A stretch of 64,000 nt of DNA. It comes from Acidobacteriota bacterium (GTDB lineage: Bacteria; Acidobacteriota; Vicinamibacteria; Vicinamibacterales; UBA2999). The stretch lies in NCBI GenBank assembly GCA_947482665.1, contig CANKJK010000002.1, forward strand, positions 62,001-126,000. Direction: 5' to 3'. Position 1 is the stretch's first letter; each line of letters begins with the position of its first letter. The position numbers were made by a program, and so were the translations under genes. Shown in pieces: positions 10,686 through 63,390 of the stretch. The notes under the pieces are model-generated. The model searched no databases, was not told the DNA's origin, and saw only the letters and a program-made list of their open reading frames with translations.

Positions 10686-10689
10686 CCGG

Positions 10690-40340: not shown

Positions 40341-40411
40341 ATGCCCACACTGTTGCCCGGCTGTCGCACCTCAGCCACGAGGACGACACGCCGGGCCACT
40401 ACAAGGACACC

Positions 40412-40651: not shown

Positions 40652-40654
40652 CAT
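40601..40654 (+). promoter_or_regulatory. Possible weak Pho-type promoter of ppk
   Basis: TAGCAT (40649-40654) starts 15 bp after GTTAC (40634), matching the spacing of the four clearer Pho-type promoters in this window. The units further upstream on the 11 bp grid (AACAG at 40623, GTCCG at 40612, TCATT at 40601) are poor matches. The site overlaps the end of the small gene before ppk. Confidence 0.3.
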
Positions 40655-40680
40655 GACAAGGCCCCGGTGAACGGGGCGGC

Positions 40681-42834: not shown

Positions 42835-42898
42835 CGACGCCAAGGCGTCGATACACACCCGTCACGCCGCTGTCGCCCCCGCCGGGCACAGTGGCCTC

Positions 42899-44602
42899 AT
42901 GATGGACAGTCGCCGGACGTTCCTGAAACTCTTCGGCGCGGGTCTGACCGGCGCCACCTGGACCGCAGCCAGCCTCGACGCCTTCGGGCGCGACCACCGG
43001 ACGTCGCCCTTCGGGCGCTTCACGCCCATCCGGGTCGGACGCGAGGACGCGCTGCGGCTGCCCCCCGAGTTCACCTATGACGTCGTCGCCCTCTGGGGCG
43101 ACCGGCTCCCGGGCACAACGGATCGATTCGGGTTCAACGCGGACTTCACCGCGTTCTTCCCCATCGGCACGAGCGGACACGAGGGCGTGCTCTGGGTCAA
43201 CCACGAGTACATCAAGGACCCGAAGCAGCCGTTCAGCCTCTACGGCCAGAGCGCACCGGCGGTCCTCGGCCACGAAGCGACGGTCGAAGACGAACTGACG
43301 GACATCGGCGGGTCGGTACTGCATCTGCGACGCACCAACGGCCGCTGGACCGTCGTCGCATCGCCCCTCACGCGCCGCTTCAACGTCCGCTCCCGGCTGA
43401 CGGCCACGGGGCCCGCGCTCAGGGACGCGGGCGATGTCGGCGGTACGCTCGCGAACTGCTCAGGCTGCCAGACGCCGTGGAATACGGTACTGAGCTGCGA
43501 AGAGAACTTTCAGGACGTCGTGCCTGAAGCGGTGGATACCGCGGGCCGCGGCACGATCGGCGGACGCTTCAACCGCAACGGCGCCCACTTCGGCTGGGTC
43601 TGCGAGTTTGATCCCTTCGACCCCGACTTCACACCGGTCAAGCACACCGCGCTCGGCCGCTTCCGCCACGAGAACGTCACCCTCCGGGTCACGCCCGGCG
43701 CGCCGGCCGTCGCCTATATGGGCGACGACCGCACGGATGGCCACGTGTATCGATTCGTCTCGTCCGCGCGGTACGAACCGGGCCGCCAGCGCAACCGCGG
43801 GAGCCTGCTGGCCGACGGCCGGCTCTACGCGGCGGTCTTCCACGCGGACGGCACCGGCACCTGGCGCGAGCTCACGGCGGCCACACCGCTCGCTCCCAAC
43901 GCCGCGAGCCCGGTCCCGACGGTGCCCGCAGGCGCCAGAACGCTCGGGGACATCTACGCGAACCAGGGCGCCATCGTGACGGACGCCTTCCGGGCCTCGA
44001 ATCTCATCGGGGCCACCGAGTGCGGGCGGCCCGAGGACCTTGAGGTCCACCCCGTGGACGGCTCCGTCTTCATCGCGTTCACGGCGGCAGCCGAACGCGG
44101 GGCGAGGCTCTTCTCGAATCTGTACGGCGAGGTGTGGCGCATCGCGGAAGACGGCGACGGCACCGGTCTCCACTTCACGTGGTCACGCTGGTGCGCCGGC
44201 GGACCGAACACAACCGCCCGTGGCGGCGCCATCTTCGCCGCCCCGGACAACATGCTCTTCGACCGGGCGGGCAATCTCTGGCTCGCCTGCGACATGTCGT
44301 CGTCGGTCCTGGCCGGGGACGACCCGCGCTACGCCGCCTTCGGCAACAACGGCCTCTTCTTCGTGCCGGTCACCGGGCCGACCTCCGGGATTCCGCAGCA
44401 GTTCGCCTCGGGCCCGTCGGAGTGCGAACTCACCGGGCCCTCCTGGTCGGCCGACGACAGCACGCTTTTTCTGTCTGTGCAGCACCCGGGGGAAGCGCAC
44501 GGCGTGCGCCAGTCACGCGCGGACTCCCGCGGCAGCAACTGGCCCCGCGGTACCGCCGGACAGACGCCACGCCCTGGCGTGGTCGCCATCCGGCGGCGCT
44601 GA
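42899..44602 (+). CDS. PhoX-family alkaline phosphatase (DUF839), Tat-exported
   Basis: A 567-residue protein. The twin-arginine signal is DSRRTFLKLFGAG. The family patterns are VLWVNHEYIKDP, NCSGCQTPWNTVLSCEENFQ, ALGRFRHENVTLRV and ATECGRPEDLEVHPVDGSVF. PhoX enzymes are calcium/iron phosphatases that release phosphate from organic esters outside the cytoplasm during phosphate starvation. Two adjacent ATGs (42899, 42902) are equally possible. It lies 64 bp after ppk. DUF839 also covers proteins of unknown activity, so phosphatase function is likely but not proven. Confidence 0.83.
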   Translation: MMDSRRTFLKLFGAGLTGATWTAASLDAFGRDHRTSPFGRFTPIRVGREDALRLPPEFTYDVVALWGDRLPGTTDRFGFNADFTAFFPIGTSGHEGVLWVNHEYIKDPKQPFSLYGQSAPAVLGHEATVEDELTDIGGSVLHLRRTNGRWTVVASPLTRRFNVRSRLTATGPALRDAGDVGGTLANCSGCQTPWNTVLSCEENFQDVVPEAVDTAGRGTIGGRFNRNGAHFGWVCEFDPFDPDFTPVKHTALGRFRHENVTLRVTPGAPAVAYMGDDRTDGHVYRFVSSARYEPGRQRNRGSLLADGRLYAAVFHADGTGTWRELTAATPLAPNAASPVPTVPAGARTLGDIYANQGAIVTDAFRASNLIGATECGRPEDLEVHPVDGSVFIAFTAAAERGARLFSNLYGEVWRIAEDGDGTGLHFTWSRWCAGGPNTTARGGAIFAAPDNMLFDRAGNLWLACDMSSSVLAGDDPRYAAFGNNGLFFVPVTGPTSGIPQQFASGPSECELTGPSWSADDSTLFLSVQHPGEAHGVRQSRADSRGSNWPRGTAGQTPRPGVVAIRRR

Positions 44603-44809: not shown

Positions 44810-45955
44810 ATGCCGAGCCACTCACTGCCACGCCGCACCACGCTTCGTGCCTACGCTGAGAACGCCGACTGGAGCCGTTTCACGACGGCCGTGTCACTGC
44901 ACGCTCACACGTCCTATTCGCGCGAGGTGATGTCGGACCTGCCTCGCTACATCGCCAAGATCCCCTTCGTCGCCGGGCGCTTCAAGCGGTCGGCCGCCGA
45001 CGTGGACTTCTCGAAAGGCTGGTGGCACCCGCCAATTGACGCACGGGGCGTCTTCGAATCGGAGGTCGCGCAGATCGAGCGGCGCTTCGGTCTTGACTCG
45101 ATCGTCTCGCTGACGGACCACGACGACATCAGCGCGGGACTCGACGTCCAGGCCCGCTATGCATCCCGCCGCGCCCCGATCTCCACGGAATGGACGGTGC
45201 CGTGGGAGGGAGGCTTCTTCCATTTCGGTGTCCACAACCTGCCGCCGGCCTCGGCCCGCGAGTGGTTCGCGCGGCTGAACGCCTTCACCCAGCACCCGCG
45301 GCCGGGCGAACTCGACGACATCCTCGACAACCTCCACGAGGTGCCCGGGCTGCTCCTCGTCTTCAATCACCCGATGTGGGACCTGGCCTGTGTGGGCGAC
45401 CACGCCCACGGCCTCGCGCTGCATCGCTTCATGCGTGCGCACGGCCCGATGATTGATGCACTCGAAATCAACGGCTACCGATCGCGGCACGAAAATGGGC
45501 GCGTGCGGGAGCTGGCCACTGAGCTGAACCTGCCGCTCATTTCCGGCGGCGACCGGCATGCACTGGCGCCAAACGCGGTCGTCAATCTGACGACGGCGAA
45601 GACCTTCGCGGAGTTCGCCGACCAGGTGCGCGGCGGCGAGAGCCATGTGGTCGTCATGCCGGAATACGCGCAACCCACGGAACTACGCAAGCTGGCGGCG
45701 GCGGCCGACGTGGTGCGGCACTACCGCGCCTACCCTCGCGAACGGCGTCACTGGACGGGTCGTGTCTCCTGGCACCTCGACGACGGCATCAAGCCCCTTT
45801 CGCACGTATGGCCTGACGGCGGCCCCTTCTGGATCCGGTCGGTCTTCGCCGCGTTCCGGATCGCCGCGTGTCCGGTCGCGCGAGCTGTCCTGACGCCACT
45901 CTTCCGGCGCCGGGCGGCGAATCTGGATACGCGCCTGCTGCCGACCGTGGTCTGA
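44810..45955 (+). CDS. PHP-domain (metal-dependent phosphoesterase-like) protein
   Basis: A 381-residue protein with PHP metal-binding motifs in order: SLHAHTSYSREV, SLTDHDDISAG, LLVFNHPMWD and LISGGDRHALAP. PHP domains hydrolyse phosphoesters using two or three metal ions; the substrate here is unknown. The C-terminal 100 residues extend beyond the PHP core and include IKPLSHVWPDGGPFWIRSVF. GGGAGG (44800-44804) lies 5 bases before the ATG. It is followed 11 bp later by a glycosyltransferase gene, so the two are probably one operon. Confidence 0.8.
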   Translation: MPSHSLPRRTTLRAYAENADWSRFTTAVSLHAHTSYSREVMSDLPRYIAKIPFVAGRFKRSAADVDFSKGWWHPPIDARGVFESEVAQIERRFGLDSIVSLTDHDDISAGLDVQARYASRRAPISTEWTVPWEGGFFHFGVHNLPPASAREWFARLNAFTQHPRPGELDDILDNLHEVPGLLLVFNHPMWDLACVGDHAHGLALHRFMRAHGPMIDALEINGYRSRHENGRVRELATELNLPLISGGDRHALAPNAVVNLTTAKTFAEFADQVRGGESHVVVMPEYAQPTELRKLAAAADVVRHYRAYPRERRHWTGRVSWHLDDGIKPLSHVWPDGGPFWIRSVFAAFRIAACPVARAVLTPLFRRRAANLDTRLLPTVV

Positions 45956-45966
45956 CGGCGTCCCTC

Positions 45967-47211
45967 ATGGACACACGAACCCCGCGCGTCGCGTTCTTCA
46001 CGGATTCTTACTACGAGGCCAACGGCGTGGCCAGGACGGCGCAGGCCCTGGAAGGCTACGCCGAGCAGCATCGGTACCCGATGCTGGTGGTTCATGGTGG
46101 CCCGACCACCCAACTCATCGAGACGGGTTCCGTCATCCGGCTCGAACTCAGGCGGGCGGCGGTGTCTTCCTTCCACCTTGAACACGATCTCCGGTACGAC
46201 CTCGCCCTCTGGCGCCACCTCCGCCGCGTCTCCGCGATCCTGCGGCGGTTTGAGCCCGACGTCGTGCACGTCACCGGCCCGAGCGACATCGGCCAGATCG
46301 GGGCGCTGCTCGCCAGGCGCCTGGACCTCCCTGTCACCGGTTCGTGGCACACCAACGTGCACGAGTACGCGGCGCGGCGACTCATGCCCTACCTCCAGGC
46401 TCTCCACGTGCCGGGCCGCGACCGCCTCGGTGCGTGGGTCGAGCGTTCGGCCCTGCGGGCCGTGCTGCCGTTCTATCGGATGGCGGACGTCATCCTCGCT
46501 CCGAACGCCGAGTGGCTCACCGTCGCGCGCGAACAACTGGGCACGCCCGCATTCCTGATGGCCCGCGGCGTCGACACGGAGCTCTTCACGCCGGCGCGGC
46601 GGTGCCGAGGGGACAACGTGCTCCGCATCGGCTACGTCGGCCGGCTCTCCAAAGAGAAGAGCGTCCGCGAGCTCGCTCGTCTGGAGCGGTCCCTGGTGGC
46701 GGCAGGTGCGCCCCGATTCGAGATCAGAATCGTCGGAGACGGCGCCGAGCGCGACTGGCTGAGTGCCCACCTGAGCCACGGCCGGCTCATGGGCACGCTG
46801 CGCGGGCCGGCGCTGGCCGACGCCTACGCGGGCTTCGACCTGTTCGCGTTTCCGTCCGTCACGGAAACCTTCGGCCAGGTCCTGCAGGAAGCGCTGGCCT
46901 CAGGCGTTCCCGTTGTGGCAATGGCGGCGGGCGGCCCGCGTTACATGCTGGCAGACGCCGGCGGCGCGGTCCTGGCGGCCACGCACGACGCCTGGATCCA
47001 GGAGGCCGTGTCGCTGGCACTCGATCCGGCCCGTCGGCGCGCCCTCGGCACCGCGGCACGACAGACAGCCCTGTCCCGGTCGTGGAGCGCGGTGTGCGAC
47101 GTCGTCTATCAGGCCTACGCCACCGCCATCACCCACCACCAGCGGCGGCCACGGGCCGCGGTGGCCCCCGACCTCGCGCCTGGCAAGACAGAGGAGCGGG
47201 TCGCCTCGTAG
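45967..47211 (+). CDS. GT4-family glycosyltransferase
   Basis: A 414-residue GT-B enzyme. The N-terminal acceptor domain has FFTDSYYEANGVARTAQALE, PDVVHVTGPSDIGQIG and VTGSWHTNVHEYAARRL. The donor domain has RIGYVGRLSKEKSVREL and the EX7E-type region VTETFGQVLQEALASGVPVV. The pattern resembles glycosyltransferases that work on diacylglycerol or phosphatidylinositol-type lipids (SqdX- and PimB-like), but donor and acceptor cannot be read directly. Position beside phospholipid genes makes a glycolipid product a reasonable hypothesis. Confidence 0.85.
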   Translation: MDTRTPRVAFFTDSYYEANGVARTAQALEGYAEQHRYPMLVVHGGPTTQLIETGSVIRLELRRAAVSSFHLEHDLRYDLALWRHLRRVSAILRRFEPDVVHVTGPSDIGQIGALLARRLDLPVTGSWHTNVHEYAARRLMPYLQALHVPGRDRLGAWVERSALRAVLPFYRMADVILAPNAEWLTVAREQLGTPAFLMARGVDTELFTPARRCRGDNVLRIGYVGRLSKEKSVRELARLERSLVAAGAPRFEIRIVGDGAERDWLSAHLSHGRLMGTLRGPALADAYAGFDLFAFPSVTETFGQVLQEALASGVPVVAMAAGGPRYMLADAGGAVLAATHDAWIQEAVSLALDPARRRALGTAARQTALSRSWSAVCDVVYQAYATAITHHQRRPRAAVAPDLAPGKTEERVAS

Positions 47212-48523: not shown

Positions 48524-50175
48524 GACGCCGCACGGCCGAAGCGGGCGGCAATCATTTCGTGCAGAACGTCCCGTTGCACCGACGCATGACTGGCACCGGG
48601 TGGATGCCACCACCACCCGTCCGCCAGCATGCGTTGCGCGGCGCGGAGATACCGCTCGGCCACATCCTCGAACTCCGCGTCCGTCGTGGCGTGGCTGAAG
48701 ATGAATCGCCCCGTCCCGACCCAACTCAGCGCGAGTCCCTCGGCGCGCAGGTAGAACTGGAACATCCAGTTGTAACGGGAAGGGGCCGGGTACCACACCG
48801 TCCAGACCGACACGAGATTGGCCACGCGGACGGGCAGGCCGCGTTCGGCCAGGCGCGCGTTGAGCGATTCGGCGCGACGATTCCATGTCGCCTCGAGGTT
48901 GTCGTAGGTGGCGCGGATCTCGGGCGTCTCCAGGCGACGCAGAAACTCCCGCATGGCCGTGATCACGTACGGATGAGCGTTGAAGGTGCCGCGGGCGAAA
49001 CAGATATCCACCGGCCGCTCTTCGCGGAACCGGCGCATCAGGGTGCGCCGGCCGCAGAGGACGCCGACCGGGAGGCCCCCGCCCAGGGTCTTGCCGTATG
49101 TCACCAGGTCCGCCCGGACGCCGAAGAACTCCTGCGCACCGCCTGGCGCGAGGCGGAACCCAAGAAAGACCTCGTCGAAGATGAGCACGATGCCCCGTGC
49201 CGTGCACACGTCGCGAAGCTGTTGCAGCCACGTGGCGTATTCGGCGCGGCTGACGCCCGCGTGTCCCCGGCCCGCCACGAGCGCGCTGTCGCCGGGCGCG
49301 GCCTGATTCGGATGGAGCGCCTGGAGCGGATTCACCAGCACGCAGGCGATGTCGCGCCGGGTGCGCAGGACGTAGAGCGAGCGGGCGTGCATGTCGCGCA
49401 GCGTGTAGACGCCCTCCACGCGCCGTGGTGTGCCGACGCCGGGCTGCACGTCGTCCCACCAGCCGTGATACGACCCGCAGAAGCGTACCAGGTGACTGCG
49501 CCCCGTGTGGTACCGCGCCAGGCGGACCGCCTGCATGACGGCCTCGGTGCCCGACATGTGGAACGACACCTCGTCGAGACCGGAGACCGCGCGCAGACGG
49601 TCGACCACCTCCTGAATGGCCGGGTGATAGGCGCCCAGCACGGGACCGAGAGTGCGCGCCCCGGCGGCGGCCGCATCGATACAGTCCTTATAGAAGTCGT
49701 AGCCGAACAGGTTGACGCCGTACGACCCGCTCAGGTCGTACGACGCCTGGCCGTCCAGGTCCACGACCATCCCGCCCTCGGACCGCGCCACGAGACTCCC
49801 CAGCGAGAGATGCCGGCTGAGGTAGCGGGCGTAGGGATAGGGGACTCGGTAGGCGCCGGTGAACTGGAGGTCCGAGACGCCATCGGCAAGGGCCTGCGTA
49901 GCGGCGATGGTCTCCGGCGACCGCTGACGCAGCTGGCCCGCCACGCGTGCCAGCCCGGTCTGACGGGCCGTTACGGTCGCGGCCGGTGCGCCGTCGCTCG
50001 CGAAGAACGCGTCAGCATCGCGGTCGTCCCGAGCCACGTGCCGCGCCAACCAGCGCGCCATCCTCGCGTGTCCGGCCAGCGACGGATGCTTCGCGCGCGA
50101 GAGCGCGAGGCGCGCCCGTACCGCCGGCCAGGCGGCTACCAGCGCCGCCGCGGCGGCGCCTGCTTCAATCACCAC
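48469..50175 (-). CDS. Class III (PLP-dependent) aminotransferase with N-terminal extension
   Basis: A 568-residue protein. The PLP core resembles glutamate-1-semialdehyde aminomutase: VSFHMSGTEAVMQAVRLARY, FCGSYHGWWDDV, IVLIFDEVFLGFRLAPGG and K362 in LVTYGKTLGGGLPVGVL. About 130 residues precede the core, beginning with a hydrophobic helix (VVIEAGAAAAALVAAW), so it may be membrane-associated. The family is usually about 430 residues. The GTG at 50175 follows AGGGGGAA. It is divergent from psd with 23 bp between starts. A substrate linked to lipid head groups is speculation. Confidence 0.83.
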   Translation of the reverse strand: MVIEAGAAAAALVAAWPAVRARLALSRAKHPSLAGHARMARWLARHVARDDRDADAFFASDGAPAATVTARQTGLARVAGQLRQRSPETIAATQALADGVSDLQFTGAYRVPYPYARYLSRHLSLGSLVARSEGGMVVDLDGQASYDLSGSYGVNLFGYDFYKDCIDAAAAGARTLGPVLGAYHPAIQEVVDRLRAVSGLDEVSFHMSGTEAVMQAVRLARYHTGRSHLVRFCGSYHGWWDDVQPGVGTPRRVEGVYTLRDMHARSLYVLRTRRDIACVLVNPLQALHPNQAAPGDSALVAGRGHAGVSRAEYATWLQQLRDVCTARGIVLIFDEVFLGFRLAPGGAQEFFGVRADLVTYGKTLGGGLPVGVLCGRRTLMRRFREERPVDICFARGTFNAHPYVITAMREFLRRLETPEIRATYDNLEATWNRRAESLNARLAERGLPVRVANLVSVWTVWYPAPSRYNWMFQFYLRAEGLALSWVGTGRFIFSHATTDAEFEDVAERYLRAAQRMLADGWWWHPPGASHASVQRDVLHEMIAARFGRAASHLAAWVTIGSKRSPRST

Positions 50176-50198
50176 AGTTCCCCCTATCTGGAGTGTCG

Positions 50199-51104
50199 AT
50201 GACGACCTGGTTTGAACGCCTGCTCGCGCAGGACGCAATCAACTTCACCCTCACGAACCGCATCCCGAGGCGATGGCTGACGCGCGTCGTCGGGCGCGTC
50301 AGCCGTCTGGAGCATCCAGTCATCTGGAAGGTGTCGCTGGCGCTCTGGCAGCGATTCGGCGGCGACCTCCACCTGGAGGAAGCTGCCGTGCAGGACTTCG
50401 CCAGCGTGCATGCCTGCTTCACGCGGGCCCTGAAACCCGGCGCGCGCACGATCGACCGCGGCCCGTCCACGCTGGTCAGTCCCTGCGACGGCATCGTGGG
50501 CGCGGCAGGGCGCATCCACCAGGGTCAGCTCTTTCAGGCCAAGGGGGCCCGCTACACGCTGGAGGACCTGCTCGGGGGCGCGGAGGCCGCGCCATTCGAA
50601 GGCGGCACGTACGTCACGCTGCGGCTGACGTCGGCGATGTATCACCGCTTTCACGCCCCGGCGGACCTGCGCCTCCGGAGCACGACGTTCATTCCCGGCG
50701 AGCTCTGGAACGTGAATCCCGTCACGGTCCGGCGCATCCCACGCCTCTACTGCCGGAACGAGCGGGCCGTCCTGCGGACGACGACGGCCACGGGACTGGA
50801 ACTGCTCCTCGTCGCGGTCGGCGCCGTGCTGGTCGGTAGCATCCACGTGCACGCGGTCGGCACGCCCCTCAATCAGGAATACGGCGGGCCCTACCACCTG
50901 CCGTGCGCGGCGGAAGCCGACAAGGGTGACGAGCTCGGGTACTTCCACCACGGCTCGACCATCATCGTGATTGCGACCAGCCGGACCAGACTGTGCGAAG
51001 GCGTCACCGCCGGCGCGGCCATCCGGATGGGACAGGCCCTGCTGCGGGAGGACAGGGAAGAACGGGACCACGTGGGTGTCCCGGACTCTAGCGGTCAGGT
51101 GTAA
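50199..51104 (+). CDS. psd: Phosphatidylserine decarboxylase proenzyme
   Basis: A 301-residue proenzyme that converts phosphatidylserine to phosphatidylethanolamine at the inner membrane. The family blocks are STLVSPCDGIVGAAGRI, YVTLRLTSAMYHRFHAPADL, GELWNVNPVTVRRIPRLY and VAVGAVLVGSIHVHAVG. The self-cleavage motif is FHHGSTIIV, with S253 becoming the pyruvoyl group; the usual LGST is HGST here. GGAG (50189-50192) precedes ATG 50199. It supplies the substrate for the PmtA-like enzyme encoded upstream. Confidence 0.9.
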   Translation: MTTWFERLLAQDAINFTLTNRIPRRWLTRVVGRVSRLEHPVIWKVSLALWQRFGGDLHLEEAAVQDFASVHACFTRALKPGARTIDRGPSTLVSPCDGIVGAAGRIHQGQLFQAKGARYTLEDLLGGAEAAPFEGGTYVTLRLTSAMYHRFHAPADLRLRSTTFIPGELWNVNPVTVRRIPRLYCRNERAVLRTTTATGLELLLVAVGAVLVGSIHVHAVGTPLNQEYGGPYHLPCAAEADKGDELGYFHHGSTIIVIATSRTRLCEGVTAGAAIRMGQALLREDREERDHVGVPDSSGQV

Positions 51105-51246: not shown

Positions 51247-51789
51247 ATGGTGACGGAACCCCGCACGGTCGCTGACGTGCTCCGGGCGCTCAGATCGACG
51301 CCCTGGCTGATGCTCGGGCGACGCTGGAACTACAAGTCGGCCGTCCTCAGTTCGCTCACGCGGGCCGCCGTGTTCTTCTGCGTGAATCTGACGGCCGGCC
51401 TGGATGGCGCGGCAGGTGCCGCGGCGACGGAATTCGTGTTTCGCCTCGCAACCTCAGGCTTCTACGGCGCGCTCACACAGTCCTTCCGTCATGTGGAACC
51501 ACGCTGGCAGGGGCAGCTGGCCGCGCTCCTCATCGTCCCGGCGGCGGGGCACTCCCTGGAACTGCTCGTCCACTGGCTGCGGGGCACGCCGGAGCTGACC
51601 GCCAGTCTGGCCGCGTCCATCTCCTTCACGGCGCTCTCCACCGTGTTCCACCTGTTCGCGATGCAACGGGGCGTGCTGATCGTGGGTGAGGGCCAGCGCA
51701 CGCTGCTCGAAGATCTTCGCTCGCTGCCCTCGGTGGTCACCGCGTTTCTCCGGCAGGCCGTGCGCGCCTCGGCGGGCACGTGCCTGTAA
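51247..51789 (+). CDS. Membrane protein of unknown function
   Basis: A 180-residue protein with about three to four membrane segments: SSLTRAAVFFCVNLTAGLDG, GQLAALLIVPAAGHSLELLV and SLAASISFTALSTVFHLFAM. The C-terminal helix EGQRTLLEDLRSLPSVVTAF is amphipathic. I do not recognise a family. Its last 10 bases overlap the GTG of the glycosyltransferase-kinase fusion gene, so the two are likely translationally coupled and may work together at the membrane. Confidence 0.7.
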   Translation: MVTEPRTVADVLRALRSTPWLMLGRRWNYKSAVLSSLTRAAVFFCVNLTAGLDGAAGAAATEFVFRLATSGFYGALTQSFRHVEPRWQGQLAALLIVPAAGHSLELLVHWLRGTPELTASLAASISFTALSTVFHLFAMQRGVLIVGEGQRTLLEDLRSLPSVVTAFLRQAVRASAGTCL

Positions 51790-54677
51790 CTACGCTGCAC
51801 ATCACCAACGCCTGGCACGCGACATCTGGGGGCGTGCGTACGTTCTACCGGATGCTGATGGAAGCGGCCAATCTGGATGGCCGCCGGATGATCCTGGTGG
51901 TTCCGGCTGATCGCGCGTCTGTGGAATCGGTCGGCCGTTTCGGCCGGATCTACTTCGTCAAGGCTCCGGCCGCGCCCGCCTTCGATTCCCGATACCGGCT
52001 GCTCTACCCGCATACGTACCTGCCGCCCCTGGCCGGTCCACTCCACCGGATCCTCGCGGAAGAGCGCCCAGATGTCGTGGAGATCTGCGACAAGTACACG
52101 CTCCCCTATCTGGCAATGGTGCTGCGCAAGGGCTACCTCCGTGGCGTGCCGCGGCCGGCCCTCGTCGCGCTGACCGCGGAGCGGTTCGACAACAACATGG
52201 CCGCGTACCTCCACAGTGGCGCCGCAGCACAGCGCTTCACCCGCTGGTACCTACGGCACATCTACGGGCCACCCTTCGATCTGCACATCGCCAACTCGGA
52301 ATACACCGCCATGGAGCTGCGCCAGGCTCTGCCGGACCGTCCGGGCGGCTTCATCCGCGTGTGCCCGCCCGGCGTGGGATGCGAGGATTTCTCACCAGAG
52401 CGTCGGTCATCCGCGCTGCGGGCATCTCTGCTCTCGACGATGGGCGCGCCCGCGACCGCAACGCTCCTGCTCTACGCTGGACGACTCTCGCCGGAGAAGA
52501 ACCTGCCGCTGCTTACCGATACCCTGCGCCTACTGGCGGAGCGGGACGGCGACCACCGGCTGGTCGTCGCGGGGGACGGCCCGGAGACCTCGCGATTGCA
52601 GTCGCTCGCGGCCGGACCCCTGGCGGGCCGAATGCTCCTCTGCGGCAGCCAGACGCGGCAGCAACTCTCGACGCTCTACGCCAGCGCCGATGTCTTCGTG
52701 CATCCCAATGACCGGGAGCCGTTCGGCATCGCCCCGCTGGAGGCGATGGCCTCCGGCGTCCCGGTGGTCGTGCCCGCAGCAGGCGGCGTGCTGACCTACG
52801 CCGACAACGGCAATGCGTGGATGGCCGCGCCCACGGCGACGGCCTTTGCCGCCGCCATCCGTTCCGCGGCACGAGGGAACGAGCGCCGACAGGCTGCGGC
52901 CCTCGCCACCGTCCGGCAGTTCTCCTGGGAGACCGCGGCCCGACGGCACTTCGCGGCCTACGACGCGGTCCACGCGACACTCGGACTCTCGGCCCGTCGT
53001 CACCGCGCGGCCAAGGTCCCCGTGAGCGAGCATCTGCCCGTACCGTCGACGGCGCTCCTCTCGCTGGTCAACGGACACGTGGCCGTCGACGCGGCAGACC
53101 CGATCGAGATGGCCGACCGCCGCCTGGCGCACGCCGGGCGCGAATACGGGGCCGTGTGCCGGGGCGGCGTGGTGGTCGGCCTGTGTGCACGGGCCGAGCT
53201 CCAGGGACTCCTCAGCGGCCGATATGGGTTCGCCCTGCACAGCCGGACGCCCGTGGACGGCGTCGCGCTCCGCGAGGCCCAGGTGTTTCACCCGTCACAG
53301 CCGGTCAGAGAGGTGCTGCACGCTGCGTTGGCCAGAACTGGCGCCGCCTTCTATGAAGACGTCATCGTGGCCGGCGACGAGGGGCAGTTCCTGGGCCTGA
53401 TCTCGACGCCCAGGCTGGTCGCCGCGCAGTCCACGCTTATTCAGGAACAGTTTGCCCTCGTCGAAACCCAGCGGCGCGACCTCCTGGCCGCCAACGCCAG
53501 CCTGTCACAGAGCCTCTCCCTCCAGCGCGAACTCGAGCGCCGTGTCATTGAGAAGGAGAAGCTCGCGCTCCTCGAGACCATGGCAGGCGGCATCGCCCAC
53601 GAGATCAACAACAAACTGCACCCGATCGTGGGTTACGCCGAGCTCCTGCTGGAAGAGGCCGACCTGATGCCTGTCGAGGATCTCCGGAGCGCCTGTCAAT
53701 CCATTCTGCAGTGTGCGTTGGAATCGTCGCGCATCATCGGACAGCTCCTGCGTCTCTCCCGCCCGCCGAGATCGGAACTCAGCCCCTGTGACGTGCGGGA
53801 GATTGTCGCGCAGAGCCTGACGCTCGCCGAACTCCGGACGCGCGGGACATCCACGCAGGTCCGCACGGTCCTACCAGGCCGGCCCGCGATGGTCCTCGGC
53901 GACGCCGGCCAGTTGAAACAGGTGGTGATGAACCTCGTGGTCAACGCCATCGACGCCGTGGAGGGGCGCGCCGACGCCCGGGTCACCATCACGGTTCGGC
54001 TGACCGACGTGGTGACCGTCGAAGTGGAGGACACCGGCACAGGCATCGCACCGGAGCACGTCTCCCGGATCTTCGACCCGTTCTTCACGACCAAGGCGCC
54101 CAATCGCGGCAGCGGACTCGGCCTGGGCGTCTGCGCATCAATCCTGCGCCAGCACGGCAGCGATATCGCCGTGCAATCCACGCCCGGGCACGGCGCCCGC
54201 TTCTCATTCGCGCTCCCAGCACGGGCAGAGCTGTCCGGGGCCGCCCCCGCCTCCCCCTTCAGGGTAACGGCCAGGTCGGCTGGTCCATCCCGAGTCCTGG
54301 TGGTGGACGACGACCCGGCCATCCGGTCTGTGATCGACCATACCCTGCGACAGCTGCTCGGTTGCGACGTGCACCAGGCCAGTGACGGACACGCGGGCCG
54401 CGACGCCATCCGCCAGCGGGTCTACGACGCGGTGGTCTGCGATGTCCGCATGCCGGGGCTGAACGGTGTGGAGCTGGCCCGCTGGCTGGCCGGCCGGCCG
54501 GAGCCGAGGCCCCTGACCATCCTGATGACGGGAGAAGCCGGAGACGCCCTGCGGGACGATATGGAGGCCACGGGCCTGCCCATTCTCCGAAAGCCCTTCA
54601 CGATGCGGTGCCTGGTCGACCTGCTGACCGAGGGGCTCCCGCCGCACGGGCCAGCTCACGGCGTAACCCACATTTAA
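51780..54677 (+). CDS. Fusion protein: GT4 glycosyltransferase - CBS pair - histidine kinase - receiver
   Basis: A 965-residue single frame with no visible join defects. Residues 1-410 form a GT4 glycosyltransferase: AWHATSGGVRTFYRM, LLYAGRLSPEKNLPLLTDTL, and VHPNDREPFGIAPLEAMASG around 305-325. Residues 425-560 look like two CBS units (GHVAVDAADPIEMADRRLAH; VIVAGDEGQFLGLISTPRLV), followed by a coiled coil. The kinase core has H607 (GGIAHEINNKLHPIVGYAEL), NLVVNAIDAVEG and GSGLGLGVC. The receiver has D888 (AVVCDVRMPGLNG) and K938 (LRKPFTM). No membrane segment is seen. The GTG start overlaps the preceding gene and the PhoB-type gene follows 45 bp after. I know of no described protein with this order. 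Confidence 0.88.
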   Translation: MPVTTLHITNAWHATSGGVRTFYRMLMEAANLDGRRMILVVPADRASVESVGRFGRIYFVKAPAAPAFDSRYRLLYPHTYLPPLAGPLHRILAEERPDVVEICDKYTLPYLAMVLRKGYLRGVPRPALVALTAERFDNNMAAYLHSGAAAQRFTRWYLRHIYGPPFDLHIANSEYTAMELRQALPDRPGGFIRVCPPGVGCEDFSPERRSSALRASLLSTMGAPATATLLLYAGRLSPEKNLPLLTDTLRLLAERDGDHRLVVAGDGPETSRLQSLAAGPLAGRMLLCGSQTRQQLSTLYASADVFVHPNDREPFGIAPLEAMASGVPVVVPAAGGVLTYADNGNAWMAAPTATAFAAAIRSAARGNERRQAAALATVRQFSWETAARRHFAAYDAVHATLGLSARRHRAAKVPVSEHLPVPSTALLSLVNGHVAVDAADPIEMADRRLAHAGREYGAVCRGGVVVGLCARAELQGLLSGRYGFALHSRTPVDGVALREAQVFHPSQPVREVLHAALARTGAAFYEDVIVAGDEGQFLGLISTPRLVAAQSTLIQEQFALVETQRRDLLAANASLSQSLSLQRELERRVIEKEKLALLETMAGGIAHEINNKLHPIVGYAELLLEEADLMPVEDLRSACQSILQCALESSRIIGQLLRLSRPPRSELSPCDVREIVAQSLTLAELRTRGTSTQVRTVLPGRPAMVLGDAGQLKQVVMNLVVNAIDAVEGRADARVTITVRLTDVVTVEVEDTGTGIAPEHVSRIFDPFFTTKAPNRGSGLGLGVCASILRQHGSDIAVQSTPGHGARFSFALPARAELSGAAPASPFRVTARSAGPSRVLVVDDDPAIRSVIDHTLRQLLGCDVHQASDGHAGRDAIRQRVYDAVVCDVRMPGLNGVELARWLAGRPEPRPLTILMTGEAGDALRDDMEATGLPILRKPFTMRCLVDLLTEGLPPHGPAHGVTHI

Positions 54678-54716: not shown

Positions 54717-54722
54717 CACCCT

Positions 54723-55439
54723 GTGACAACCACCGGACGCAACGGACGAACCTATGTCCTCATCGTCGAAGACGAGCAGGACATTGCCAGCCTCGTCAAG
54801 CACACCCTCGAACGCTCGGGGGACATGTACGTGGAGACGGTCAGCAGCGGGGACGCGGCCGTGAAGTCCGTCTCCCTCGAAACACCCGACCTCATCGTGC
54901 TGGACCTGAATCTGCCGGTCCTGAGCGGCGTGGAGGTGTGCCGGATTCTCCGTGCCCGCCCCAACACCGCGCACACGCCGATCATCATGCTCACGGCCCG
55001 CTCCAGCGAAGCCGACCGCGTGGCCGGCTTCGACGTGGGCGCGGATGACTACGTCACGAAGCCCTTCAGCCCGCGGGAGCTCGCGGCTCGCGTGCGCGCC
55101 GTCATCCGCCGGGGCCGGCAACAGGCCACGGACCGTCCACCAGCCGTCACGGTGTATGAAGGCCGACACCTCCGGGCGGACTTCGACGCGGTGCACGTCA
55201 CCGTTGACGGGGAAACCCTCCGGCTCACGCGCCGTGAATTCGAGTTGCTGAAGTATCTGGTGGACAACAAGGGCCGCGTCATCACGCGCGACCGTCTACT
55301 GGAACGCGTCTGGGGCTACGACCGTGAAATCGAGACGCGCTCGGTGGATGTGCACGTCGGGCGGCTCCGCTCCAAGTTGAAGGCGGCGGGAGGCCAGATC
55401 GAGACCGTGGTTGGCCTCGGATACCGCTTCGTGGAGTAG
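54723..55439 (+). CDS. PhoB-type response regulator (OmpR family)
   Basis: A 238-residue regulator with a receiver (YVLIVEDEQDIASLVKHTLE; D61 in LIVLDLNLPVLSGVEVCRIL; YVTKPFSPREL) and a winged helix (LRLTRREFELLKYLVDNKGR, RSVDVHVGRLRSKLKAAGGQ). Its own promoter carries the same four-unit repeat as pstS, so it is the best candidate for the PhoB of this organism. No PhoR follows; possible partners are the fusion kinase just upstream or the PhoR-like kinase at 10.7 kb. The GTG start has no ribosome binding site and coincides with the predicted transcription start. Confidence 0.9.
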   Translation: MTTTGRNGRTYVLIVEDEQDIASLVKHTLERSGDMYVETVSSGDAAVKSVSLETPDLIVLDLNLPVLSGVEVCRILRARPNTAHTPIIMLTARSSEADRVAGFDVGADDYVTKPFSPRELAARVRAVIRRGRQQATDRPPAVTVYEGRHLRADFDAVHVTVDGETLRLTRREFELLKYLVDNKGRVITRDRLLERVWGYDREIETRSVDVHVGRLRSKLKAAGGQIETVVGLGYRFVE

Positions 55440-55743: not shown

Positions 55744-56628
55744 TCAGACAGGCACGCGAACAGTCACCAGCTCCGGCAACTTCGTCATCTCGAGGCGAGT
55801 ACCCCCGATATGGGGTTCCCCGTCGACGTGGTACGCCAGCGGAACCGGGCTCTCAATGGCCGCGGTCGCACTGCGAACCACGGTCACGCCGGGCACCTCA
55901 TGAATGCGTCCGGCCAGCAACCGCGGCACGCGCCACAACAGGCGGGCCACCGACATCCGGGGGATCACGACGATGTCGATCACGCCGTCATCCAGCCGCG
56001 CCTGCGGGGCGATCAGCACATCGTTGCCGTACTGCCGGCTGTTGGCCAGCGCCACGACGAGGGCGTCGGCGTCAAGCGTCCCTCCCTCCGTGCGAATGGA
56101 GCACGGCGTGCCGACTGGCGCGAGGAGCGCGCGCGCGGTCTTCCCGACATAGCTCACCAGACCGCGCCCGCCATGATTCTGGAACGCCTGCGCCACGCGG
56201 GCATCGAGGCCGATGCCGGCGACATTGAAGAACGGCCGACCGTCCAGGACCCACCCATCGATCACGCGGTCACGCCCATCCACGAGCACATCGAGTGCCG
56301 CGCGCGGGTCGAGCGGAATCCCCAGGTCGCGCGCCAGTCCGTTGCCGGATCCCCCCGGTACGATGCCGAGCCGCGCTCGGGTGCCCGCGAGGGCGGACGC
56401 CACCTCGTTCACGGTCCCGTCGCCACCCCACGCCACCACCAGTTCCGCGCCGGCCGTAACAGCCGCCAGGGCGAGCGCGTGCGCGTGACGTGGACGCTCC
56501 GTCACGATGGCCTCCACCTGCAGCCCTCGCGCGGCCAGTTGCCCCTGTGCCAGTGACGCCCGCGCCTGCGCCCGGGCGTGGTGTCCCTGGCGGCCCGACA
56601 CGGGATTGATGATGACCGTGACGTTCAT
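55744..56628 (-). CDS. Diacylglycerol kinase-family lipid kinase
   Basis: A 294-residue soluble lipid kinase of the DgkB/YegS type. The nucleotide-binding motifs are VTVIINPVSGRQGHHARAQA, VAWGGDGTVNEVASAL and GIVPGGSGNGLARDLGIPLD. The lipid-binding C-terminal lobe includes FFNVAGIGLDARVAQAF and ALVVALANSRQYGNDVLIAP. Members phosphorylate diacylglycerol or related lipids to recycle them into phospholipid. ATG 56628 overlaps the upstream gene stop by 4 bp. It is the last of a coupled three-gene operon (CHAD, SixA-like, lipid kinase). Confidence 0.88.
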   Translation of the reverse strand: MNVTVIINPVSGRQGHHARAQARASLAQGQLAARGLQVEAIVTERPRHAHALALAAVTAGAELVVAWGGDGTVNEVASALAGTRARLGIVPGGSGNGLARDLGIPLDPRAALDVLVDGRDRVIDGWVLDGRPFFNVAGIGLDARVAQAFQNHGGRGLVSYVGKTARALLAPVGTPCSIRTEGGTLDADALVVALANSRQYGNDVLIAPQARLDDGVIDIVVIPRMSVARLLWRVPRLLAGRIHEVPGVTVVRSATAAIESPVPLAYHVDGEPHIGGTRLEMTKLPELVTVRVPV

Positions 56629-57131
56629 CGAGCGGCCTCTCCGCTCGTGGGAGGCGTCGCCATCCACATGATTCGGGCCGCGCCGGCCTCCGCGCAACGC
56701 AGGCGCATGCGACACATCGCCCCTTTCGGGAACGGATGTGTGACCGGATGGCCCGTGAGGAATGCTGCCAACGCCGAGAGGTCCGGTTCGTGCCCCACGA
56801 TCGCGATGCGGGTCGCGCGGTGTCGACGAAGGGCACGTACCACGTGCGCAGGATCACCGCCAGGCTCCACGGCGCGGCACACGCGGACGTCGGCCTCGGG
56901 CGTCACCGCTCTGGCCAGAAGTCGCGCCGTGCCGGTCGCGCGGCTGAGCCCGCTGGTCAGCACGAGCGTCACGCCGGAGCGCCGCACGCGAGGCGTCCGC
57001 AGCAGGGCGGAGAATGCCGCAATCCCGGCCGGGCTCAGGGGTCGGCGGCGGTCGTCCGGCCAGCGGAGACCTCGCGCCTCCGCGCGCGCGTGCCTGACCA
57101 GATACACATGCCGCACGCGGGAACCGGTCAC
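56625..57131 (-). CDS. SixA-like histidine phosphatase
   Basis: A 168-residue protein of the histidine phosphatase superfamily. The catalytic motif is HVYLVRHARAEARGLRWPDD, with RHA in place of the classic RHG, as in SixA. LSPAGIAAFSALLRTPRVRR, LTSGLSRATGTARLLA and IAIVGHEPDLSALAAFLTG (second catalytic histidine) complete the site. SixA enzymes remove phosphate from phosphohistidine. GTG 57131 overlaps the CHAD gene stop (GTGA). SixA-like and CHAD genes are often neighbours, hinting at a shared polyphosphate or phosphohistidine role. Confidence 0.85.
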   Translation of the reverse strand: MTGSRVRHVYLVRHARAEARGLRWPDDRRRPLSPAGIAAFSALLRTPRVRRSGVTLVLTSGLSRATGTARLLARAVTPEADVRVCRAVEPGGDPAHVVRALRRHRATRIAIVGHEPDLSALAAFLTGHPVTHPFPKGAMCRMRLRCAEAGAARIMWMATPPTSGEAAR

Positions 57132-57973: not shown

Positions 57974-58048
57974 GGGGATCGTGGGGCTGCTGGTGTACAA
58001 CTGAGCGCACCGCCACGCTGATCTTAATCTGCTGACGGGACATCGCTC

Positions 58049-59635
58049 ATGCGGATCGCCGCCATCGACATCGGCACCAACTCGCTGCACATGCTCATCG
58101 TGCAGGTGCGGGCCGATCTGTCTTTCGAGGTGATCGACCGGGAAAAAGCCATGGTGCGCCTGGGCGCCGGTGGACTCTCCGGTCGCCGGCTCACGCGCGA
58201 GTCCATGGCGGCGGCACTCGAAGCCCTGCGCCGCTTCCGGCGCCTCGCGGACGCGCACGGTGTCGACGAGATTCTGGCCGCGGCCACCAGCGCCACGCGA
58301 GAAGCCCTGAACGGCAGCGAATTCCTGGCCCAGGTCACCCGCGCAACCGGGATTCGGACGCGGGTCGTCTCCGGGGAACAGGAAGCGCGGCTGATTCATC
58401 TGGCCGCGGTCTACGGCGTCAACGTCGGACGCGGCCGCGCCGCGGTCATCGACATCGGCGGCGGCAGCATGGAGGTCACGCTCGGCACGGGGTCAGCGGT
58501 CCAGCTGGCGCGCAGCTTCAAGCTGGGCGTCATCCGGATGACCGAACGCTTCGTCCGGACCGACCCGATCACGCCGCGAGAAGAGCGCCGTCTGGAGGAG
58601 GCCGTCACCGACGCCGTCGAGGAGTACTGCGGGCAGGTGGCAGCCGCGGGCTTCGACCGCGTGATCGGCACGTCCGGCACGATCCTCAATCTCGCTGCGA
58701 TGGCCACCGCGCTCGACCGCGGACAGGCGCCGAAGGAACTCCGGAACCTGTCCGTGACGGCGCGCCAGATTCGCCGGCTGCGGAAGGAACTGACCGCGAG
58801 CACCCTCGAAGAGCGCCTCGCACTGCCCGGCATGGATGCCCGCCGGAGCGACCTGATCGTCGCCGGCGCGATCGTCCTGGATACGACGCTGCGCCTGCTC
58901 GGAGCGGCAGAGCTGACCCTCTGCGACCTCGCGCTGCGCGAAGGCCTGCTCCTCGACTACATCCGCCGGCACCGGCGAGAAATCGCCCAGGCCGACGCGA
59001 TCCCCGACGTGCGGCGCCGGAGCGCCGTCGAGTTGGCAGACCGCTGCGGCTACCAGGCGGACCACGCCACCCACGTCGCACGGCTGGCGCTGGCGATTTT
59101 CGATCAGTCGCGTTCGGTGCACGGCCTGACCGACCGCGAGCGCGAATGGCTGGAGTATGCGGCTCTGCTCCATGACATCGGCGTCCACATCAGCTACGCC
59201 CGTCACCACCGTCACTCGTACTACCTCATCACCAACGGTGACCTCCGAGGCTTCCACCCGGATGAGATCGCGGTGATCGCCCTGGTGGCGCGCTATCACC
59301 GGCGAGGCACGCCCAAGCGCACCCACCCGGAGTGGTCGGCCCTCGACGTGCCGCATCGAAAGGCGGTTCGTGTCCTTGCGGCCATCCTCAGGCTGGCCGA
59401 GAGCCTCGACCGTAGCCATGCGCAGGTCGTCACCGGCCTCACGCTCCGGCGCACGGGGAAGACGCACACACTGACCTGTGTGTCACCCACCGACGCGGAA
59501 CTGGAGGTCTGGGCCGCCCAGCGGCACTGCCAGCCCTTTGGCCGGCTCCTGGGCACGCCCCTCCAGGTGGAGGCGGCTCGACCATCGCCCCCAGGTCCGA
59601 CCGCGCCAGGTCGCGCCCGCGTAACGCGGAATTAA
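58049..59635 (+). CDS. ppx: Exopolyphosphatase/guanosine pentaphosphatase with C-terminal HD domain
   Basis: A 528-residue Ppx/GppA enzyme. The ASKHA-fold motifs are MRIAAIDIGTNSLHMLIVQV, TRVVSGEQEARLIHLAAV (catalytic glutamate) and AAVIDIGGGSMEVTLGTG. The C-terminal HD-like domain has DHATHVARLALAIF, ALLHDIGVHISYARHHRHSY and VIALVARYHRRG. It degrades polyphosphate from the chain end or hydrolyses pppGpp; sequence alone does not separate these. It is divergent from the CHAD operon with 75 bp between starts, and pst follows in the same direction. Confidence 0.92.
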   Translation: MRIAAIDIGTNSLHMLIVQVRADLSFEVIDREKAMVRLGAGGLSGRRLTRESMAAALEALRRFRRLADAHGVDEILAAATSATREALNGSEFLAQVTRATGIRTRVVSGEQEARLIHLAAVYGVNVGRGRAAVIDIGGGSMEVTLGTGSAVQLARSFKLGVIRMTERFVRTDPITPREERRLEEAVTDAVEEYCGQVAAAGFDRVIGTSGTILNLAAMATALDRGQAPKELRNLSVTARQIRRLRKELTASTLEERLALPGMDARRSDLIVAGAIVLDTTLRLLGAAELTLCDLALREGLLLDYIRRHRREIAQADAIPDVRRRSAVELADRCGYQADHATHVARLALAIFDQSRSVHGLTDREREWLEYAALLHDIGVHISYARHHRHSYYLITNGDLRGFHPDEIAVIALVARYHRRGTPKRTHPEWSALDVPHRKAVRVLAAILRLAESLDRSHAQVVTGLTLRRTGKTHTLTCVSPTDAELEVWAAQRHCQPFGRLLGTPLQVEAARPSPPGPTAPGRARVTRN

Positions 59636-59674
59636 CATGACAGTAACCGCAGGGAAACCCCTGGCCGGTAGGCT
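59621..59674 (+). promoter_or_regulatory. Pho-box promoter of the pst operon
   Basis: Units GTAAC (59621), TTAAC (59632), GTAAC (59643) and GAAAC (59654) start exactly 11 bp apart. TAGGCT (59669-59674) begins 15 bp after the last unit starts. The predicted transcription start is 59681, the A of the pstS ATG, and there is no ribosome binding site upstream, so the mRNA may be leaderless. The first units overlap the end of ppx. This is the clearest copy of the motif in the window. Confidence 0.75.
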
Positions 59675-59680
59675 CAACGC

Positions 59681-60739
59681 ATGAAGATCATGCGTGCACT
59701 GATGGTCACGGCTGCCGTGCTGACGGTGGCCTGCGGCGGCGGGACTCCCGCCGGCAACGCGACGGCACCCCAGGCGTCGAAGGAGCTCCAAATCAACGGC
59801 GCGGGAGCCACCTTCCCGTATCCCATCTATTCGAAGTGGTTCTCGGAGTACAACACGCTCCACCCCGAGGTCCGCATCAACTACCAGTCCATTGGTTCGG
59901 GCGGCGGCATTCGCCAGCTCACCAACCAGACGGTGTTCTTCGGCGCCACCGACGGCCCGATGTCTGAGGAGCAGTTGAAGGCCGCTCCCGGCCCCGTGCT
60001 GCACTTCCCCACCGTGCTGGGTGCGGTGGTCCCCATCTACAACGTGCCCGGCATTGAGGGCGACCTGCGGTTCTCGGGCGCCGTGCTGGCCGACATCTAC
60101 CTCGGCAAGATCAAGAAGTGGAATGACCCGGCACTCGCCAAGCTCAATGCCGGCGTGAAGCTGCCGGCCACGGACATCACCGTCGTGCACCGCTCGGATG
60201 GGTCGGGCACGACCTTCATCTTCGTGGACTTCCTCTCGAAGGTCTCTCCGGCGTTCAAGGAGAAGGTTGGCGTGGCGACCTCGGTCAACTGGCCGGTCGG
60301 CGTGGGCGGCAAAGGCAACGAGGGCGTCGCCGGGCTGGTGACGCAGACGCCGGGCTCCATCGGGTACGTCGAACTCATCTACGCCAAACAGACCAAGACC
60401 GCCTACGGCGCGGTGCAGAACGCCGCGGGTGAGTTCGTGAAGGCCTCCGTGGAAGCCGTGACGGCCGCCGCGGCCGAGGCCGCCGCGAACATGCCGGCGG
60501 ACTTCCGGGTGTCCATCACGAACGCCCCTGGCAAGACGGCGTATCCGATTGCCTCGTTCACGTGGATGCTGCTCTTCGAGAACCCCACGGACAAGGCCCA
60601 GAGCGCCGCCATGGTGAACTTCCTCAAGTGGGCCCTGACCGACGGCCAGAAGGGCGCCACCGAACTCGGCTACGCCCCGCTGCCGGCCTCGGTGATCTCG
60701 CTCGAGCAGGCTGCCCTCGCAAAGGTCAAGGTCTCTTAG
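59681..60739 (+). CDS. pstS: Phosphate ABC transporter substrate-binding lipoprotein PstS
   Basis: A 352-residue binding protein. The N-terminus has a lipobox (AAVLTVACGGG), so it should be lipid-anchored, unlike the paralogue at 28.7 kb. Signatures are INGAGATFPYPIYSKWFSEY, SIGSGGGIRQL, FFGATDGPMS and HRSDGSGTTFIFVDFL. It delivers phosphate to PstCA. The ATG at 59681 coincides with the predicted transcription start; internal ATGs at 59690 and 59702 would still leave a signal sequence. It is the first gene of pstSCAB-phoU. Confidence 0.94.
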   Translation: MKIMRALMVTAAVLTVACGGGTPAGNATAPQASKELQINGAGATFPYPIYSKWFSEYNTLHPEVRINYQSIGSGGGIRQLTNQTVFFGATDGPMSEEQLKAAPGPVLHFPTVLGAVVPIYNVPGIEGDLRFSGAVLADIYLGKIKKWNDPALAKLNAGVKLPATDITVVHRSDGSGTTFIFVDFLSKVSPAFKEKVGVATSVNWPVGVGGKGNEGVAGLVTQTPGSIGYVELIYAKQTKTAYGAVQNAAGEFVKASVEAVTAAAAEAAANMPADFRVSITNAPGKTAYPIASFTWMLLFENPTDKAQSAAMVNFLKWALTDGQKGATELGYAPLPASVISLEQAALAKVKVS

Positions 60740-60760
60740 CCCGGCTTCGCCGGACCGGTC

Positions 60761-61699
60761 ATGCGCGCACGTTCCCAGGACCTCGGGTTCCGCCTCACGA
60801 CGGGCGCGTTTGCGGCCGCATTGGCCGCCATCGTGATCGGCGTGGGCGTGGCACTCGTCAGCCAGTCGTGGCTGACCATCCAGAAGTTCGGGCTGGGATT
60901 CTGGAGCACGAGCACGTGGGACCCGGTCGCCGGCGACTTCGGAGCGCTCCCCTTCATCTGGGGCACGCTCTACTCCTCCATACTCGCGCTGCTCATTGCG
61001 ACACCCATCGCACTGGGCATCGCGGTGTTCATTTCCGAACTCTGCCCGGCCCGCCTCCGGACACCGCTGGTGTTCCTGACGGAATTGCTGGCCGCCATCC
61101 CGTCGATTGTCTACGGTCTGTGGGGCATCTTCGTGCTCGTCCCGGCCGTGCGCAGCCTCCAGACGCATGTGCCGGACGCCCTGCGCGCGCTGCCGATCTT
61201 TGCGGGCCCGCCGCTCGGCGTCGGCATGCTCTCGGCCGCGCTGATTCTCGCCATCATGGTCGTGCCGTTCACGTCGTCGGTGGCACGTGAAGTCCTGAAG
61301 TCCGTTCCGGTGACCCAGCGGGAGGGCGCCTACGCCCTCGGCGCGACGCGCTTTGAAGCCATCCGCGCCGCGATGTACTTCGCCCGCACGGGCATCGTCG
61401 GCGCGGTGATGCTGGGCTTCGGGCGGGCACTGGGTGAAACCATGGCCGTCACGATGGTCATCGGCAACAACCCGCAGGTGTCGGCCTCGCTCTTCGCCCC
61501 GCAGTACACGATGGCCGCGGTCATCGCGAACGAATTCACCGAGGCGGCGGACGCCCTCTACCTGAACGCACTCGTCGAGATTGGTCTCGTGCTCTTTGCC
61601 ATCACGCTCGTGGTCAATGGGCTCTCGCGCCTGCTCATCTGGTCGATGGCCCGCGGCGCGCGCGGCCCGCGCCGGAAGCCGGCTGGAGCTGCGGCATGA
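60761..61699 (+). CDS. pstC: Phosphate ABC transporter permease PstC
   Basis: A 312-residue inner-membrane permease with about six helices. IVIGVGVALVSQSWLTIQKF starts helix 1, GTLYSSILALLIATPIALGI follows, and the EAA-like loop is REGAYALGATRFEAIRAAMY. ARTGIVGAVMLGFGRALGET is the PstC signature. It forms the channel with PstA, driven by PstB. ATG 60761 is 21 bp after pstS, and the stop overlaps pstA by 4 bp (ATGA). Confidence 0.93.
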   Translation: MRARSQDLGFRLTTGAFAAALAAIVIGVGVALVSQSWLTIQKFGLGFWSTSTWDPVAGDFGALPFIWGTLYSSILALLIATPIALGIAVFISELCPARLRTPLVFLTELLAAIPSIVYGLWGIFVLVPAVRSLQTHVPDALRALPIFAGPPLGVGMLSAALILAIMVVPFTSSVAREVLKSVPVTQREGAYALGATRFEAIRAAMYFARTGIVGAVMLGFGRALGETMAVTMVIGNNPQVSASLFAPQYTMAAVIANEFTEAADALYLNALVEIGLVLFAITLVVNGLSRLLIWSMARGARGPRRKPAGAAA

Positions 61700-62544
61700 G
61701 CCACACCGCGTATCGGACGCTCCTCTCGCGCCTGTTCGTCGGGGCCTGTGGCCTCGCGGTCCTGGTGGCGCTCATCCCGCTTGCGTTCATCCTCTTCTTT
61801 GTCGTCAGCCAGGGATTCCAGGCGCTGAACCTCGACTTCTTCACGCACATGCCGAAACCGGTGGGCCAACCCGGAGGGGGCATGGCCAACGCGATCGTGG
61901 GCACGCTCATCCTGAGCGGACTCGCCGCACTCCTGGCCGTCCCGGTTGGCGTCATGAGCGGCGTCTACCTCTCGGAGTATCCGCAGACACGCCTGGCCTC
62001 CGCCGTCCGCTTCGCGTCGGACACGCTCAATGGCGTGCCGTCGATCGTCATCGGCGTCTTTGCCTACGGGCTGGCCGTGCTGCCGTTCAAGCAGTTCAGT
62101 ACGCTGGCGGGCGGTCTCGCGCTCGGGATCATGATGATTCCCATCGTCACGAAGACGACCGAGGAACTGCTGGTCCTGGTGCCGGGCTCCATGCGAGAGG
62201 GCGCGCTGGCACTGGGCGCGACGCGGGGCCGGGCGGTCTTCAGCGTCATCATTCCGGCCGCGCTCCCGGGTATCATCACCGGCATCGTGCTGGCCCTGGC
62301 CCGAATCGCCGGCGAAACGGCGCCGCTGCTGTTTACCGCCTTCAACAACCGCTTCTTCTCGACGAGCCTGACGCAACCAATCTCGTCGATCACGGTTCAG
62401 GTCTACACCTACGCGATCTCGCCCTATGAAGACTGGCACCGCCAGGCCTGGGCGGGCGCGCTGGTGCTCATCACGATCGTCCTCGTCTGCTCCATGCTCG
62501 CGCGCCTCGCCACGTCGCGGGTGTCGCGCCTGAGAACCCGATGA
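61696..62544 (+). CDS. pstA: Phosphate ABC transporter permease PstA
   Basis: A 282-residue inner-membrane permease. [60 protein letters not shown] and [20 protein letters not shown] are the PstA family segments. About six helices are predicted. It pairs with PstC. Its start overlaps the pstC stop and its stop overlaps the pstB start, each by 4 bp, so the three are tightly coupled. Confidence 0.93.
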
Positions 62545-63380: not shown

Positions 63381-63390
63381 GGAGAGCGCC

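Follow-up and report, generated by a model that had tools for sequence, protein, structure and literature searches.

A single open reading frame in the genome of an Acidobacteriota bacterium encodes a GT4 glycosyltransferase (GT) joined to a CBS-type pair, a histidine kinase core and a receiver domain, and it lies just before a gene encoding a PhoB-type response regulator. The 64,000 nucleotide stretch of DNA that we analysed (the window) is a large Pho cluster, in which GDPD-PPK-PhoX and PPX-PstSCAB-PhoU genes flank the fusion. The best account, to which we give slightly better than even chances, is that a phosphate-stress lipid-type GT4 was joined in this one genome to a Pho-linked hybrid kinase, with tuning of the kinase by the GT as a possibility. 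The Pho response is usually held to listen to phosphate uptake. If real, the fusion would mean that an enzyme of the membrane-lipid-glycosylation type has been covalently tied to a phosphate-linked phosphorelay in nature, and the idea that lipid remodelling feeds back on the Pho response could be tested on it.

The fusion gene and its parts are listed here, with the evidence for each.

51780..54677, + strand: fusion protein of 965 aa, GT4 + CBS-type pair + HisKA/HATPase + receiver (open reading frame, Pfam, motif reading, codon model)
51780..52979, + strand: GT4 glycosyltransferase half, residues 1-400, with E313-x7-E321 (Pfam, stand-alone orthologs)
52980..53036, + strand: junction linker, residues 401-419 (in-frame GTG at 53022, preceded by AAGG, with a +1-frame TGA)
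53037..53435, + strand: CBS-type pair, residues 420-552 (family alignment, profile against CBS structures, relatives above the Pfam CBS cut-off)
53574..54224, + strand: histidine kinase core, HisKA 599-661 and HATPase_c 707-815, with H607 (Pfam, motif reading)
54294..54623, + strand: receiver domain, with D888 (Pfam, motif reading)

The frame starts with GTG, has 965 codons and contains no internal stops. Five Pfam matches, all of which exceed their cut-offs, cover most of its functional parts: Glyco_transf_4 (PF13439) at residues 17-200 (8.9e-8), Glycos_transf_1 (PF00534) at 225-372 (4.6e-30), HisKA at 599-661 (2.9e-8), HATPase_c at 707-815 (4.4e-26) and Response_reg at 839-948 (5.2e-18). Direct reading finds the E-x7-E motif (E313 and E321) together with the GT4-type domains in the GT half, H607, the N-box at 718, DTGTG at 751 and GSGLG at 777 in the kinase, and the acidic residues D843-D845, D888 and K938 in the receiver. 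The protein consequently has the HisKA histidine, the N, G1, F and G2 boxes of the HATPase and the receiver aspartate by which hybrid histidine kinases are recognized. An earlier note on this DNA had described these four parts in one 965-codon frame with their catalytic-looking residues complete, and the reading frame, the Pfam matches, the alignments and the motifs all agree with it. It placed the GT at residues 1-410; the GT4 domain is indeed complete, with its end nearer residue 400. The close coupling that it reported is also seen, as the fusion gene shares 10 bp with the 180-aa membrane-protein ORF upstream, and 45 bp separate its end from the PhoB-type ORF.

Do the two halves really form one protein? 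GT homology stops near residue 400 and kinase homology starts near residue 420, and the GT orthologs end about 10-80 residues past the same point (~residue 400). The in-frame GTG at 53022 (V415) has AAGG five nt upstream and overlaps a TGA at 53023 in the +1 frame; this GTGA may mark where a formerly separate, overlapping kinase gene once began. One explanation would be that the organism has two distinct, overlapping genes here, which were merged in the sequence by an indel near 52976-53022 that arose in assembly or sequencing. The fusion comes from a single genome, GTGA resembles a normal four-base overlap, and every other relative found, of either half, is separate. However, a codon model trained on the genes of the window prefers frame 0 in all of the 48-nt windows between 52836 and 53256, a region that spans the junction, and over residues 399-414 it gives frame 0 a score of +1.6 versus -5.1 and -6.2 in the other frames, with no frame switch. 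Because frame 0 is kept across the junction, a recent indel or sequencing error, that is, the frameshift between the GT and kinase halves against which the earlier note had cautioned, is not supported in this single assembly, and we consider it very unlikely.

It is also conceivable that there are two products in practice, with the GTG at 53022 serving as an internal start for a separate CBS-kinase-receiver protein, and with the fusion being read-through or partly an accident of the overlapping GTGA junction. Kinase homologs do start near V415, and the GTG has both the AAGG and the +1-frame TGA in place. However, SD-like four-mers are present before just two of the 19 gene starts in the window and by chance before 8% of the internal ATG/GTG codons, and the junction frame stays open and codon-like. 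Since such motifs are rare at gene starts and occur internally by chance, the internal start is possible but putative, and the two-product explanation seems unlikely.

Searches with the full protein covered at least 516 distinct Acidobacteriota genomes (43 from the family, 162 from the order, 193 from the class and a phylum sample of 396, these sets overlapping). No second GT-kinase fusion was found among these more than 500 genomes, and the fusion is so far known from its source genome and one assembly; the relatives found include no genome of the same genus. None of the plasmid records has a match that covers 80% of the fusion protein, and literature searches on GT-kinase fusions, CBS kinases near phoU and GlcNAc-PG synthase returned nothing relevant. 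Some GT relatives have long open frames (773, 897 and 986 aa) that might be taken for further fusions, but we regard these as open frames of high-GC DNA, because the surplus is upstream of the GT, where the neighboring MEM and GTa genes use other frames. The fusion, known from one genome, is most likely lineage-specific, and it would represent a new domain combination rather than a new kind of system.

Taken alone, the GT half looks like an ordinary member of its family. Stand-alone orthologs with 41-59% identity are present in about 25 other Acidobacteriota genomes, including seven genomes of the family and others in the order and phylum, and the GT half retains 55 of the 57 residues that are invariant in 17 relatives, as any other member does. 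The orthologs usually follow a MEM ortholog and are near a GTa gene, an arrangement that we refer to as the GTa-MEM-GT cassette. Its other two members in the window are as follows.

45868..47211, + strand: GTa, a GT4 glycosyltransferase, cassette partner gene
51247..51789, + strand: MEM, 180 aa with one clear hydrophobic segment, middle cassette gene (orthologs with 34-60% identity directly before the GT ortholog)

The earlier note had suggested looking for the same gene order in other Acidobacteria: the GT cassette and its linkage to PhoB do recur, and the fusion itself is absent from the more than 500 genomes. In five genomes (L047, L048, L051, L053 and L093) the cassette is within about 10 kb of an orphan PhoB ortholog, and in L047 a phytase gene follows the GT.

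The closest NCBIfam model to the GT half is GlcN_PG_synth, the N-acetylglucosaminyl phosphatidylglycerol synthase (NF053787), at 126 bits. No other full-length GT model fits the GT half and its orthologs better, although the matches (126-138 bits) are far below the 480-bit cut-off and, unlike the fusion, this synthase has no kinase part. From the cassette with MEM and from the phosphatidylserine decarboxylase (PSD) and diacylglycerol kinase (DGK) genes in the surroundings we infer that the GT half is of a lipid type, with diacylglycerol or another lipid as the putative acceptor. In other bacteria, glycolipids free of phosphorus are made by GTs that belong to the Pho response (PMC4796936). For example, the Agt GT4 glycolipid glycosyltransferases of Agrobacterium and SAR11 are encoded beside plcP (PMC4796936), so that, as here, a GT is located in a phosphate-stress locus with lipid genes. 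The likeness drawn here is one of locus context; the locus shows no plcP, and in contrast to Agt the fusion GT carries a histidine kinase and a receiver.

The family of the kinase half is a rare one, with the order CBS-PAS-HisKA-receiver and a length of about 680-770 aa, and is found in Acidobacteriota and Verrucomicrobiota; three genomes of another Acidobacteriota family have such kinases, and there are two more distant CBS kinases. At 551 aa, the kinase half of the fusion is shorter, and the PAS columns between the CBS pair and HisKA are missing. Besides the whole PAS, it has lost 10 further family-invariant residues, most of which are located in the CBS part or the coiled segment that follows it; the catalytic residues are all kept. 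This pattern points to an enzyme and a kinase that are both predicted to work and to an input side that has been altered. The placement of the fusion copy in the family tree is not settled and its branch is long.

The CBS assignment depends largely on the relatives. The pair in the fusion scores below the Pfam threshold when taken alone (15.3 bits), but the family alignment places it directly before the kinase with 35-40% identity to most members, the relatives L001, L076 and L077 pass the Pfam CBS cut-off, and a profile of the family matches almost exclusively CBS-domain proteins in the PDB (best 1.9e-4). An AlphaFold model of this part, made from four sequences, has a mean pLDDT of 51. CBS pairs that bind adenosyl compounds or nucleotides have the ribose-binding motif G-h-h-S/T-x-x-D. 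Its Asp is missing in both repeats of the fusion (GLCARAE at 467 and GLISTPR at 539) and throughout the kinase-half family, and therefore the nucleotide sensing that the earlier note attributed to this part is unsupported.

The locations of the stand-alone kinases display a pattern. Six of the 17 copies have a phoU, pst, DUF47 or pit gene no more than about 6 kb away, compared with none of 23 control kinase loci that lack the CBS module and were scored by the same criteria (Fisher's exact p about 0.003 by our own calculation; four of the six belong to one clade, so that the independent cases number about three plus the window). These six kinases are the following.

L131:7879-9921: directly between phoU and DUF47-pit
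L122:8937-10973: adjoining DUF47-pit-phoU-pst
L123:8655-10691: adjoining DUF47-pit-phoU-pst
L126:8898-10961: adjoining DUF47-pit-phoU-pst
L129:7327-9417: adjoining DUF47-pit-phoU-pst
L087:7969-10026: near phoU-phoB and pit

All six share with the fusion the CBS-kinase-receiver order, 36-40% identity and a Pho neighborhood; they carry a PAS and no glycosyltransferase, and the fusion is the reverse. It is possible that the CBS-PAS-HisKA-receiver proteins are an unrecognised family of phosphate-control kinases. In Verrucomicrobiota and Acidobacteriota, these little-noted cytoplasmic hybrid kinases by pst-phoU and pit genes would then be candidates for an extra input to phosphate control.

The fusion itself has the following phosphate and lipid genes around it.

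10005..12438, + strand: separate PhoB-PhoR pair, preceded by DUF47 and pit genes (5080-6731)
39009..44602, + strand: glycerophosphodiester phosphodiesterase (GDPD), polyphosphate kinase (PPK) and alkaline phosphatase PhoX
49947..51104, + strand: PSD, true start probably further in (PF02666, 6.4e-54)
54723..55439, + strand: PhoB-type response regulator, 45 bp downstream of the fusion (TIGR02154 at 228 bits, below the 296 cut-off; orthologs with 66-76% identity)
55744..56715, - strand: DGK-type lipid kinase, YegS-like (PF00781, PF19279)
58049..64000, + strand: PPX, PstS, PstC, PstA, PstB and PhoU, running past the window edge (PhoU by PF01895; PstA, PstB, PstC and PhoU aligned to pst-phoU genes elsewhere; PPX and PstS read from ORFs)

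In the relatives, where the contig reaches that far, the orthologs of the PhoB at 54723 are orphans beside DGK-SixA-CHAD-PPX genes. In the window the DGK-SixA-CHAD genes (55744-58399) are by PPX, and they are kept next to the orphan PhoB in L051 and L053. The region from 5080 to 12438 is a second phosphate locus that encodes DUF47, Pit, a TonB-type receptor, a PhoB-like regulator and a PhoR-like kinase.

As in PhoR-PhoB two-component systems, the kinase gene is part of a Pho cluster and has a PhoB-type regulator gene next to it. However, the fusion kinase has a hybrid receiver and neither a membrane sensor nor a PAS, it scores 102 bits against the PhoR model TIGR02966 (cut-off 334), and the window has a PhoR of its own. 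Because of the PhoB-PhoR pair at 10005-12438, the adjacent PhoB is not the obvious sole partner of the fusion kinase. The genome encodes HPt proteins, and therefore a phosphorelay from D888 is possible. The earlier note also described a Pho promoter before the PhoB gene. A search of the window, including the regions near 51780 and 54723, for two CTGTCAT repeats four bases apart gave no Pho-box match above chance, although the local consensus may differ from this one; the repeats of a CTGTCAC-CTGTGAC sequence near 54713-54727 are incorrectly spaced, and the sequence runs into the start codon.

These observations bear on whether the kinase half was acquired for some signal other than phosphate, with the adjacent PhoB being served by the PhoR at 10.5-12.4 kb. 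That kinase scores 293 bits against TIGR02966 (cut-off 334), and 11 of the 17 stand-alone homologs have no pst, phoU or pit gene nearby. However, the fusion is inside a Pho cluster and 45 bp before PhoB, and the other six family members adjoin Pho transport genes, which makes this explanation rather unlikely. The role that the earlier note proposed, a link between lipid glycosylation and phosphate signalling, has gained from the Pho and lipid genes, from the cassette-PhoB linkage in five genomes and from the kinase family by pst, phoU and pit; the Pho promoter and the nucleotide sensing are not supported.

How might the joined protein work? In the account that we favor, a gene boundary would have been lost between the cassette GT4 and a Pho-associated cytoplasmic hybrid kinase, just before the PhoB-type regulator. 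The GT half would glycosylate a membrane lipid acceptor under phosphate stress, and the kinase half would autophosphorylate at H607 and pass the phosphate to D888 and from there to the PhoB-type regulator, either directly or through an HPt protein. As the GT takes the place of the PAS input and would carry the kinase to the membrane, its occupancy may tune the kinase. At a minimum, enzyme and signal output would be fixed in a 1:1 amount and in place.

The simplest competitor is that the halves work independently and that the join is neutral and fixes co-expression only. Both parts are already in Pho loci separately, so that co-expression would suffice; the fusion occurs once, and its GT half has no sign of altered constraint. 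Yet it is the sensory side of the kinase that was reshaped, with the PAS lost and the CBS pair diverged, and this suggests a new input. We give such a passive join a substantial chance, though short of even. A stronger form of tuning, in which the GT acts as the kinase's sensory domain, can also be imagined: autophosphorylation would be gated by a lipid or sugar nucleotide bound in the GT4 active site, and the cell would read the replacement of phospholipid by glycolipid and adjust its Pho response through PhoB. This is quite unlikely.

Some minor features of the cassette deserve mention. MEM has no match in Pfam or NCBIfam searches, and it is kept across the phylum as the middle gene of the GT-MEM-GT cassette without belonging to a known family. 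GTa and MEM are adjacent in several relatives, unlike in the source genome, where methyltransferase-like, weak Mpo1-like, class-III aminotransferase and PSD genes (47226-51104) are between them. The 408-aa protein encoded before GTa (44729-45955) has a weak PHP_C match (E 0.15), and PHP-type genes are also upstream of GTa in L047.
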